In this document: in pieces, positions 35,809 to 39,668 of the stretch | Position numbering within the stretch: the stretch's first letter is position 1 | Layout of the letters: each line of letters begins with the position of its first letter | Source: Candidatus Atribacteria bacterium | GTDB lineage: Bacteria; Atribacterota; JS1; SB-45; 34-128 | DNA: 47,261 bases | Assembly (NCBI GenBank): GCA_003451675.1 | Contig: DMCY01000022.1 | Span: 1 to 47,261, forward strand | Direction of reading: 5' to 3' | Made by a program: the position numbers and the translations under genes | Notes under the pieces: model-generated | The model's input: only the letters and a program-made list of their open reading frames with translations | Databases searched by the model: none | Told to the model about the DNA's origin: nothing

Positions 35809-35838
35809 TTGACAAGAAGAGTAATTAAAACTTATAAT
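35809..35838 (+). promoter_or_regulatory. Promoter of the T-box leader
   Basis: TTGACA (35809-35814) and TATAAT (35833-35838), 18-bp spacing. The transcript would start near 35845, just before T-box stem I. Confidence 0.85.
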
Positions 35839-35868
35839 ATTGGTAACACAATATAATAAAAGAAAAAA

Positions 35869-36113
35869 ATAAAAGGGGAAAGTAGGTAAACGGCCAATTT
35901 TAGAGAACTGATGGATGGTGTGAATCAGCAAGTGACTTTACCGAATTCCACCCTGGATAATTTTCTGGTGAAACAAAGTATCCAGAAACGCACTGCTGAT
36001 GTGTTAAAAAATACCCAATGAAGAATAGGATGTTCCTATTGAAATAGGGTGGCACCACGTGATTAAACTCTCGTCCCTAGTAGTAGATATTACTAAGCGA
36101 TGAGAGTTTTTTT
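35869..36113 (+). ncRNA. T-box riboswitch, serine-type
   Basis: Stem I contains AGTA (35881-35884), then GGTAAA (35885-35890) paired with TTTACC (35937-35942), and the opposite GAA (35943-35945): the usual loop E. The distal part shows GATGGTGTGAATC. The specifier is TCC (Ser, 35947-35949) followed by the expected purine A. The T-box AGGG-TGGCACC-ACG (36046-36059) pairs with CGTCCCT (36072-36078) as antiterminator. The competing terminator spans 36065-36113 with a seven-T run. Bulge TGGC pairs with GCCA, so the tRNA must have G73, as tRNA-Ser does. Uncharged tRNA-Ser should switch on archease, rtcB and possibly serS. Confidence 0.93.
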
Positions 36114-36136
36114 ATTTAAAAAGGTAATAAACATTT

Positions 36137-36565
36137 ATGAAAGAATTTGAAATTCTCGAACATACCGCTGATATCGGAATAGCAGCCTATGGTAAAAGCA
36201 AAAGAGAAGTTTTTATCAATGCTGCCAAAGGAATGTTTAATATTATTGCTGGAAATAATAGCAACTTAATAAATAATAATTTTTCTTGTAAGGTTACGCT
36301 TAAGGCGAAAGGCCTGGAAGATTTGCTGGTAGCCTGGCTTAATGAACTTCTATATATCGGTGAAACCAGATTAGTAATTCTTAACAAATTTCAGATAAAG
36401 GAATTATCTAATTTTCAGATTAAAGCGGAAGTTGAGGGGATGAAAATCAACCCTCCTTCCGTTAAAATAGAAAAAGAGATAAAAGCAACAACTTATCATC
36501 GTTTAGAAATTAAAAAAGATGAGGAAAGCGGACTCTGGGGCGCCCGTGTAATTTTTGATATCTAA
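36137..36565 (+). CDS. Archease (RtcB cofactor)
   Basis: A 142-residue acidic protein that speeds guanylylation and turnover of RtcB. The N-terminal EILEHTADIG and the middle LLVAWLNELLYIGE are diagnostic. It is the first gene after the T-box terminator and lies 14 bases before rtcB, so the pair is co-expressed. Confidence 0.94.
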   Translation: MKEFEILEHTADIGIAAYGKSKREVFINAAKGMFNIIAGNNSNLINNNFSCKVTLKAKGLEDLLVAWLNELLYIGETRLVILNKFQIKELSNFQIKAEVEGMKINPPSVKIEKEIKATTYHRLEIKKDEESGLWGARVIFDI

Positions 36566-36579
36566 AAAAAGGAATTAAT

Positions 36580-38037
36580 ATGAAACAACCCTGGGAAGGA
36601 CATTTAAAAAAAATAGATGATTATCGCTGGGAGATTCCCAAGACCTATAACACTGGGATGAGAGTTCCCGGTCTGATTTATGCCTCTTCAAATTTATTGG
36701 AAAAAATACGCCAGGATCAGGCTCCGGAACAGGTAGCCAATGTAGCTTTTTTACCGGGGATTGTAGGTTGTTCATTGGCTATGCCTGATATCCACTGGGG
36801 TTATGGTTTCTGTATTGGCGGAGTAGCGGCTACCTCCCTAGATAATGGAGTTATCTCCCCCGGAGGAGTGGGCTTTGACATAAATTGCGGAATCAGATTA
36901 GTAAGGACTAATTTGACCTTAAAAGAAGTAAAGCCGAAAATTGAATTATTAGTAAATGAATTATTCAGGGCTATTCCCTCTGGTGTAGGTTCGAAAGGGA
37001 AGATAAAAATAAGTTATAATGAAATAAGAAATGTTTTAAGAAGAGGTTCTAAATGGGCAGTAGAGAGAGGTTTTGGCTGGGAAGAAGATATCTTATTTAC
37101 TGAAGAAGAAGGATGTATGAAAGAAACCAACCCCGATTTGGTTAGCAAGCATGCGATGGAAAGAGGAAAACCTCAATTAGGCACTCTTGGCTCAGGAAAT
37201 CATTTTTTAGAGATTCAGGTAATCGATAAAGTTTATGACCCTGAAGTTGCCCGGGAACTGGGATTAGAAGAAGGCCAAATTACCGTAATGATTCATTGTG
37301 GTTCACGGGGATTAGGGCATCAAGTATGTACTGACTACCTGGTAACTATGCAGAAAGCGGTAAGAAGATATGGAATTCAACTTCCCGACCGGCAGCTAGC
37401 TTGTGCACCTCTGTCTTCACCGGAAGGGAAAAATTATTATGCGGCTATGGCCTGTGCGGCAAATTACGCTTGGGCGAATCGCCAATGTATAATGCACTGG
37501 ACTCGGGAGGTATTTGGCAGGGTTTTTCAAAGCACTCCGGAAGAATTAGGATTGAAGTTAATCTATGATGTAGCCCATAATATTGCTAAAATGGAAGAAC
37601 ATAGTGTGGAGGGCAAGAAAGTAAAATTATGTGTCCATAGAAAAGGAGCTACCCGGGCCTTTCCCCCTTTTCATCCTGATATACCGGAAAGATACAAGAA
37701 GATAGGACAGCCGGTTTTAATTCCGGGAGATATGGGACGCTGTTCTTATTGTTTGGTAGGAACTAAAAAGGCGATGGAAGAGACTTTTGGTTCAACCTGT
37801 CATGGAGCAGGAAGGGTGATGAGCAGAACCTCAGCAAAAAAACAGGCTAGAGGGAGAGACATTCAACAAGAATTAAGAGAAAAGGGAATAATTGTAAAAG
37901 CAGAAAGCCGGGGAACCCTGGCTGAAGAGATGTCCGAGGTCTATAAAGATGTAAGTGAAGTGGTCGAAGTAATGCATCAGACCGGTATATCTAAAAAGGT
38001 GGTGCGAATGCGACCATTGGGAGTTATTAAGGGATAA
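36580..38037 (+). CDS. rtcB: RtcB RNA-splicing ligase
   Basis: A 485-residue GTP-dependent ligase joining 2',3'-cyclic phosphate or 3'-phosphate ends to 5'-OH RNA. The Mn ligands Asp100 and Cys103 lie in GVGFDINCGIRL. Further metal and GMP site motifs are GSGNHFLEIQ, HCGSRGLGHQ and CVHRKGATRAF. The guanylylated His408 is in STCHGAGR. The length is standard. It forms an operon with archease behind a serine T-box, which is unusual: this leader normally controls serS, here the next gene. Confidence 0.96.
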   Translation: MKQPWEGHLKKIDDYRWEIPKTYNTGMRVPGLIYASSNLLEKIRQDQAPEQVANVAFLPGIVGCSLAMPDIHWGYGFCIGGVAATSLDNGVISPGGVGFDINCGIRLVRTNLTLKEVKPKIELLVNELFRAIPSGVGSKGKIKISYNEIRNVLRRGSKWAVERGFGWEEDILFTEEEGCMKETNPDLVSKHAMERGKPQLGTLGSGNHFLEIQVIDKVYDPEVARELGLEEGQITVMIHCGSRGLGHQVCTDYLVTMQKAVRRYGIQLPDRQLACAPLSSPEGKNYYAAMACAANYAWANRQCIMHWTREVFGRVFQSTPEELGLKLIYDVAHNIAKMEEHSVEGKKVKLCVHRKGATRAFPPFHPDIPERYKKIGQPVLIPGDMGRCSYCLVGTKKAMEETFGSTCHGAGRVMSRTSAKKQARGRDIQQELREKGIIVKAESRGTLAEEMSEVYKDVSEVVEVMHQTGISKKVVRMRPLGVIKG

Positions 38038-38390
38038 GTATCAATTGACCAATCTACCGATTGACCAATTGCCCAATTAAATCAGTGAATAGTATATAGT
38101 AAAGAAGCCAAGAACCAGAAGATAAATATTGTGTAGAGTAAAACAGGCAGAATATATGAGGTAGGGGTTCGATTCATCGAACCCGTAAGAAAATTTCCAG
38201 AATAACCCGGGTCGGATAAATCCGACCCCTACACCAAACAATATACACTATATAAAAAAAGTTTTGAATTTTGAATTATGGTTTTACGCTTTGCGTTTTT
38301 CGCTTTAATACTATACGCTATAGGCAATAAATAATACGATTATTAAAAAATATGTAAAATTGAAAAAATATAGAGAAGAGAGGACAAGAA
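38038..38390. other. rtcB-serS intergenic stretch
   Basis: No gene and no second T-box. Near the start lies an ATTGACCAAT-rich tract (38043-38080). The composite repeat is at 38159-38232. An AT-rich tract with degenerate ACGCTTTGCG / TATACGCTATAG units follows at 38283-38325. There is no clear terminator, so read-through from rtcB to serS is possible. Confidence 0.55.
38159..38232. repeat. Composite two-hairpin repeat, copy 3 (inverted)
   Basis: GTAGGGGTTCGAT/ATCGAACCC hairpin, then about 22 bp, then GGGTCGGAT/ATCCGACCC and CCTAC. It is the reverse of copies 1 and 2. Confidence 0.75.
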
Positions 38391-39668
38391 ATGTTAGATA
38401 TAAAACTTATACGTTCTAATCCGGAGAAAGTAAAAGAGGCTTTAGAAAAAAGAAAAGAGAAAATTAATCTTGATGAGATATTAGAACTTGATCAAAAAAG
38501 AAGAGAATTATTATTAGAAGCAGGTGCCTTAAAAGAAAAAAGAAATACAGTGAGTGAAGAAATTGGAAAATTAAAAAGAGAAAAGAAAGATACCCAGGAA
38601 AAAATTTTAGCCATGAGAGAGGTATCGGTAAAGATTAAAGAATTAGACGCTCAGATAAAAGAAATTAAAGAAAAAACAGCTAAAATATTACTGGAAATTC
38701 CCAATATTCCCCATGAGAGTGTGCCGGTTGGAGAAGACGAGAAGAATAATACAGAGATAAGAAAATGTGGAGAACCGCGTAAATTCGATTTCGCCCCCTT
38801 GCCTCATTGGGATATTGGAGAAGCTCTGAATATACTCGATTTTGAACGAGGGGCAAAAGTTGCCTCTGCTCGATTCACAGTCTTAAAAGGGATGGGGGCT
38901 AAATTGGAAAGAGCTTTAATTAATTTTATGCTCGATCTTCATACCAATGAACATGGGTACAAAGAAATATTTCCTCCTTTTTTAGTAAATTCCAAGACAA
39001 TGACCGGTACCGGGCAGCTGCCCAAATTTGAAAGTGATTTATTTAAATGTGAAAATGGTCTCTATCTGGTACCGACCGCTGAAGTACCCTTAACCAATCT
39101 TCATCGGCAGGAGATTTTAGATGAAGATGATTTACCTCTTTATTATACTGCTTATACCGCATGTTTTCGTAAAGAAGCCGGTTCTTATGGAAAGGATGTG
39201 CGGGGTTTAATCAGACAGCACCAATTTAATAAAGTAGAAATGGTAAAGTTCTGCCGGCCAGAGGATTCTTATCAGGAACTAGAAACCTTAACTCAGAATG
39301 CCGAAGAAGTTTTAAAAAGATTAGAACTACCTTATCGGGTAATTGTTCTTTGCACCGGGGATATGGGATTTTCTGCTGCCAAGACCTATGATATTGAAGT
39401 ATGGCTGCCGGCTCAGAAGAAATATAGAGAGATATCATCCTGTAGTAACTGTGAAGATTTTCAAGCCAGAAGGGGAATGATAAGATATCGTTCAAAAGAA
39501 AAAGAGAAAGTAAATTTTGTCCACACCTTAAATGGTTCTGGTTTAGCAATTGGCAGAACTCTGGTTGCTATATTAGAAAATTATCAACAAAGGGACGGAA
39601 GTGTGGTTGTCCCCGATGTCCTTCGCCCATATATGGGAGGGGTTGAAAAGATAGCCAGAAATCTATAA
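38391..39668 (+). CDS. serS: Seryl-tRNA synthetase
   Basis: A class II synthetase of 425 residues. Residues about 1-105 form the long antiparallel coiled coil that binds tRNA-Ser. The catalytic core then shows [30 protein letters not shown] (motif 2), [14 protein letters not shown] and [16 protein letters not shown] (motif 3). The RBS is GAGAAGAGAGG. The T-box with a serine specifier lies 2.3 kb upstream, in front of archease and rtcB, and none directly precedes serS. All three genes may therefore share it. Confidence 0.96.

Follow-up and report, generated by a model that had tools for sequence, protein, structure and literature searches.

Here we describe a class I T-box leader that, by reading uncharged tRNA-Ser(GGA), very probably controls the transcription of archease, rtcB and serS by antitermination in Candidatus Atribacteria bacterium (phylum Atribacterota). 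The leader lies in contig DMCY01000022.1 of assembly GCA_003451675.1, of which positions 1 to 47,261 were analyzed; this whole stretch of 47,261 nucleotides is referred to below as the window. At the level of sequence, the leader, its specifier, the terminator, the gene order and the conservation of this arrangement are all demonstrated, and the control of archease and rtcB by seryl-tRNA in Atribacterota is well supported by the anatomy of the locus. As judged from gene order comparisons, archease-rtcB is an old component of the Atribacterota serine operon, to which one branch of the phylum, hereafter the far branch, adds an aminotransferase and a SerA-like gene.

A complete T-box leader upstream of archease, rtcB and serS

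The leader and its parts were mapped as follows.

35809-35838, + strand: promoter-like site TTGACA-18-TATAAT ahead of the leader, consensus match 12/12
35860-36081, + strand: class I T-box leader, Stem I through antiterminator (RF00230)
35947-35949, + strand: specifier UCC (Ser), from the Rfam alignment register and comparison of 33 leaders
36046-36078, + strand: antiterminator, composed of AGGGTGGCACCACG (36046-36059) and CGTCCCT (36072-36078), from the Rfam match and motif
36065-36113, + strand: intrinsic terminator overlapping the antiterminator, from fold and motif, with stem pairs kept in relatives

A preliminary description of this DNA, made from the sequence alone, had reported a full T-box leader, and every element it listed (loop E, specifier, antiterminator, CGTCCCT and terminator) was located. 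The search against Rfam structure models that it had proposed matched the T-box family RF00230 over 35860-36081 with 118.8 bits (E 8.2e-26), above the gathering score of 93 and across the whole model (1-219). The loop-E AGTA occupies 35881-35884, the specifier segment GAATTCCACC spans 35943-35952, the UGGC bulge within the antiterminator is at 36050-36053, and the terminator hairpin, which starts at 36065, closes with seven T (36107-36113). The covariance check, likewise proposed there, showed that 9/9 pairs of the terminator stem are kept in 25 of the 26 leaders scored (leader L143 was omitted, and L149, with 6/9 pairs, was counted as a miss, by eye probably a register slip of the pattern), and that two pairs display compensatory change, from A-U to G-C at the stem base and from U-A to C-G within the segment that the antiterminator also uses. 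Among the 29 promoter-like sites in 4.8 kb (vs 14.8 in shuffled sequences), only that at 35809-35838 scores 12/12.

Three genes follow the leader.

36137-36565, + strand: archease gene, encoding the RtcB activator (PF01951, 129.8 bits; solved relatives 1jw3 and 4n2p)
36580-38037, + strand: rtcB, encoding RNA ligase, 14 bp behind archease (PF01139, 616 bits)
38038-38390, + strand: rtcB-serS gap, 353 bp, without a leader of its own (Rfam search, consensus scan)
38391-39668, + strand: serS, encoding seryl-tRNA synthetase (SerRS; TIGR00414, 600 bits)

The archease scores 112.6 against NCBIfam NF001617, below the cut-off of 126. RtcB of the window aligns with that of Pyrococcus horikoshii (1uc2) over 9-485 (E 8e-193), including the conserved catalytic Cys and His residues. 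The next gene after serS, on the same strand, is ribB. That serS follows 353 bp past rtcB with no T-box of its own, as had been noted, is borne out: no Rfam family reaches its cut-off within the gap, and a hidden T-box or other RNA ahead of serS was rejected, the five matches in 37900-38500 all being far below their cut-offs. A consensus scan of the gap gave no promoter or terminator on the + strand, a weak negative, since the same scan missed the T-box's own terminator too.

Short repeats and palindromes were seen in the intergenic regions 35700-35800 and 38040-38340, for instance, arms at 38162-38173/38176-38187 and a 16-base unit present three times at 38039-38078. These repeats may be the cause of the long rtcB-serS gap.

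Specifier codon and partner tRNA

By itself, the window segment GAAUUCCACC is compatible with UUC (Phe) or UCC (Ser). We therefore read the specifier across 33 leaders of the same operon, including that of the window (27 plus six further). UCC is present in 32 of these; the remaining one (L143, genome G045) is unreadable: it contains a run of N, its Stem I could not be made out, and its pattern match was discarded as false, being located in the terminator region downstream of the N stretch. The specifier pattern demanded TCC and so could fail but could not name another codon; 27 full leader sequences were also inspected, and cmscan alignments of the segment were viewed for 18 of the UCC-bearing leaders. 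The base 5' of UCC is U in most leaders of the near branch, that of the window, A in L144, and G in L145 and L148, and it is missing in all 13 far-branch leaders (GAA-UCC). Because UCC is invariant while the preceding base varies or is absent, the comparison excludes Phe UUC and indicates that the leader is specific for serine, with the codon UCC. A phenylalanine leader with the specifier UUC, a triplet that does occur within the segment, is already contradicted and highly improbable: in that register, L144 has AUC while L145 and L148 have GUC, and none of the 13 far-branch leaders retains the triplet.

The preliminary description, too, had preferred Ser to Phe, arguing that the UGGC bulge demands a tRNA with G73, which tRNA-Phe lacks. 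In the near relative G005, where 30 of the 39 tRNA loci were read, tRNA-Ser(GGA) has a GCCA end (G73) and tRNA-Phe an ACCA end (A73), in agreement with that argument; however, six relatives (L007, L142, L143, L145, L168 and L248) have UGGU as their bulge, which makes the argument weaker when taken alone. It had also drawn attention to a tRNA-Ser gene further downstream in the window:

42643-42730, + strand: tRNA-Ser(UGA), G73 (ARAGORN), not the cognate of UCC

G73 of this tRNA is confirmed, but UCC pairs with the anticodon GGA, so that a tRNA with UGA is not its best partner. The gene at 42643 was accordingly rejected in this role, and, going by codon-anticodon pairing, the partner of the specifier is tRNA-Ser(GGA).

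By analogy with known T-boxes, the leader would switch as follows. When seryl-tRNA is plentiful, the UGGC bulge would find no partner in the charged tRNA, and the terminator would form at 36065-36113, ending transcription before archease. When tRNA-Ser is uncharged, whether because serine is short or SerRS is too scarce, UCC would be bound by the GGA anticodon of this tRNA and UGGC by its GCCA end; the antiterminator would then form, and archease, rtcB and serS would be transcribed together, on a transcript that presumably extends through serS.

Conservation across Atribacterota

As the preliminary description had suggested, related genomes were surveyed for a T-box together with archease and rtcB. 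The phylum sample comprised 50 Atribacterota genomes, and a separate RtcB scan yielded 80 loci in total, ten of them from Atribacterota. SerS was detected in 41 of the 50 genomes, with an additional partial SerS match in G003, RtcB in 44, and archease in 41, once in each of the latter. A T-box is located upstream of archease in 32 of the 41 genomes with archease. The near-branch layout is T-box-archease-rtcB-serS, with the T-box directly ahead of archease in all 19 genomes that have archease. The far-branch layout is T-box-(aminotransferase)-serA-archease-rtcB-serS, closely spaced, with the T-box 1.3-2.9 kb upstream of archease in 13 of 21 genomes; six of the eight misses are contig ends (G012, G019, G020, G022, G027 and G032).

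The order archease, rtcB, serS is shared by all 34 Atribacterota loci with the three genes, and 40 of the 41 genomes that carry serS have rtcB immediately ahead of it; in the remaining one, G036, the sequence stops within serS. Among the matches listed across the 50 genomes, none is an additional full rtcB located apart from serS. The distance from rtcB to serS is 11-72 bp at 21 of the 22 far-branch loci (431 bp in G013) and 41-557 bp among 18 near-branch loci. Given that the order is shared phylum-wide, archease-rtcB has long belonged to the serine operon and is not an insertion into the leader of the window. The preliminary description had considered precisely such an event, an insertion of archease-rtcB separating serS from a leader of its own. 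Although the 353 bp gap exceeds that of most relatives, and the Bacillota genomes G058 and G059 carry a T-box immediately ahead of serS, with their rtcB loci (L016 and L018) lacking serS beside rtcB, an insertion confined to the lineage of the window is contradicted by the common order (34/34, and rtcB before serS in 40/40 loci with sequence there) and can hardly be entertained.

All 21 far-branch genomes that possess archease have a SerA-like gene upstream of it. A class V aminotransferase gene in turn precedes serA in 14 of the 17 whose sequence extends far enough, the exceptions being G017, G034 and G035. At locus L155, the aminotransferase matches PF00266, with NCBIfam matches under their cut-offs, and the SerA-like protein scores 297 bits against TIGR01327 (phosphoglycerate dehydrogenase), under the cut-off of 454; roles of both proteins in serine synthesis are therefore likely, not proven. 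Relatives in which the leader adjoins a different gene, a possibility that had been raised earlier, thus exist in part: the far-branch leader precedes genes of serine-synthesis type, but the same operon also contains archease, rtcB and serS. Near-branch genomes carry their SerA-like genes elsewhere, outside the archease-rtcB-serS operon, and of six such loci inspected, four (L173-L176; not L172 and L178) have a T-box with GAAAUCC (serine). The identity between near- and far-branch SerA-like proteins is at most 42%, and the two layouts are therefore not shown to stem from one operon that simply split.

The far-branch aminotransferase-like protein is strongly diverged in L153, L154, L156, L159 and G025 (L245). 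That of L153 has no Pfam match and weak NCBIfam matches, the SQK motif of the L155 protein is missing by eye in L153 and L159, and the match in L245 is scattered over overlapping pieces.

Several observations weigh against control of this operon by a serine T-box. The leader match of the near-branch genome G045 is weak (31 bits). Besides the six contig ends, three genomes are genuine misses. The far-branch genomes G034 (L165) and G035 (L163) retain serA-archease-rtcB-serS with upstream sequence present, in which no T-box was found, whereas G036 is set apart from both layouts: its archease lacks a T-box and serA over 2.7 kb upstream, and rtcB is missing from the 490 bp read on its downstream side. 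In the window itself, the length of the rtcB-serS gap (353 bp) makes an unseen serS promoter possible, and the evidence on tRNA-Ser(GGA) comes from the relative G005, not from the window's own genome.

T-box matches of any kind were present in all 50 Atribacterota genomes, 2 to 15 in each, some of them in tandem (for example, G006:C46 and G008:C51).

rtcB and serS outside the phylum

The comparison set outside Atribacterota consisted of 70 RtcB loci, 64 of which extend 1.2 kb beyond rtcB. Archease is encoded within 1 kb upstream of rtcB in 37 of the 56 loci with sufficient reach, and serS within 1 kb of rtcB in four of the 64 (L017, L021, L026 and L033); in L025, serS is next to rtcB at a contig end. 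No T-box match was found in the genomes of these five archease-rtcB-serS loci. Of six genomes in the class to which L026 and L033 belong, four have rtcB and serS almost in contact (about 1 bp past the stop); in the remainder, the contig of G060 ends after rtcB, and a serS-like match in G061 begins 1.25 kb downstream. The SerS proteins of L017 and L021 are very distant in the SerS tree (branch 1.91), in which three changes of operon label are needed (bootstrap 2-4). By this tree, rtcB and serS were likely joined more than once, a single origin being less probable. Among Elusimicrobiota, rtcB of this type was found in one of five genomes, too few for a statement on its spread.

Possible roles of an RNA ligase in a serine operon

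Serine T-boxes on serA and serS, and archease-rtcB operons, are each already known (PMC8002221, PMC2494555, PMC3973293; here and below, excerpts of the papers are cited). The serine leaders of serS in Firmicutes resemble the one described here in being class I T-boxes of serine specificity that act by transcription termination and control serS (PMC2494555), but that excerpt reports the leader for serS, whereas here archease and rtcB intervene, in the far branch along with an aminotransferase and serA. In Paenibacillus polymyxa, a serine T-box similarly controls a serine-synthesis gene, serA, and antitermination was shown there by mutation; its specifier, however, is AGC vs UCC here, and RNA-ligase genes are not mentioned in the excerpt (PMC8002221). 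Archease adjoins rtcB elsewhere as well, and activates RtcB in P. horikoshii, with neither a T-box nor serS mentioned in that excerpt (PMC3973293). The rtc RNA-repair operon of E. coli also includes a bacterial rtcB, and its expression rises when translation is impaired; unlike the operon considered here, it pairs rtcB with rtcA, is under sigma54 control (according to a reference title), and has no tRNA-sensing leader in the excerpt (PMC10630183), from which what RtcB repairs in most bacteria appears unclear.

If archease and rtcB respond to seryl-tRNA, the purpose of this control can be seen in two ways. The simpler view, which differs in purpose and not in mechanism, is that the leader serves serS and the synthesis of serine, and that archease and rtcB, as housekeeping genes, merely share an old operon in which their control by the T-box is functionless. 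We consider this probable, given that serine T-boxes are commonplace on serS and serA by themselves (PMC2494555, PMC8002221, excerpts), that the five archease-rtcB-serS clusters outside the phylum, in genomes where no T-box was found, indicate a cluster independent of the leader, and that G034 and G035 keep the operon with no T-box found. Less readily accommodated are the unbroken order in 34 of 34 Atribacterota loci and the lack of a second full rtcB away from serS among the matches listed for the 50 genomes.

Conservation of the order across the whole phylum would rather suit a coupling in which a shortage of charged tRNA-Ser signals RNA damage or stress, and RtcB and archease are raised with SerRS to rejoin broken RNA. 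Induction of bacterial rtc operons by translation damage (PMC10630183, excerpt) and the existence of archease-rtcB-serS clusters with very distant SerS (L017/L021) point in the same direction, and raising the RNA ligase along with SerRS would then presumably be of benefit. Against this, serS adjoins rtcB in just four of the 64 RtcB loci with reach outside the phylum, and the RNA substrate has no known identity. Moreover, a T-box requires an intact uncharged tRNA presenting both its anticodon and the 3' NCCA, so that cleaved tRNA-Ser is not a direct input, and cleavage of tRNA-Ser alone would not turn the leader on. We regard the coupling as doubtful, and equally so in its full form, a tRNA-sensing RNA-repair response deliberately wired, selected and kept phylum-wide in Atribacterota. 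The RNA-repair purpose of seryl-tRNA control is unproven, and we rate the view that archease and rtcB merely share the operon as the stronger one.

In the open-licence literature, to which the search was confined (T-box catalogues in subscription journals were outside its scope), no report was found that joins a T-box with rtcB or archease, consistent with the preliminary description, which knew of no T-box control of rtcB; nor was there a report of archease, rtcB and serS together, or of any T-box in Atribacterota. With the stable tie of rtcB to one aminoacyl-tRNA synthetase and to a leader for one tRNA, seryl-tRNA shortage becomes a concrete condition for seeking RtcB substrates, and T-box regulons would extend to an RNA ligase. 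The survey would also point to a large T-box regulon in the little-studied Atribacterota, a phylum for which that literature yielded no T-box report.

Additional features of rtcB and of the window

In L006, L007, L008, L024, G062 and G063, the match to rtcB is interrupted at residues 102-103, the site of the conserved catalytic Cys. The open frames of these split genes are 932-1025 amino acids long, and the insert of L008 and L024 matches Pfam Intein_splicing; rtcB of the window has no insert.

The tRNA-Ser gene is close behind serS in many relatives, unlike in the window, where 40430-42530 intervenes. This region, from serS-ribB to tRNA-Ser, looks like the remains of a transport/sugar gene cluster, with an early-ending permease piece (PF02653) followed by an aldolase (PF00596). 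Further downstream, 44595-45746 encodes a Fic/DOC-family protein with a winged-helix end (PF13784, PF02661).

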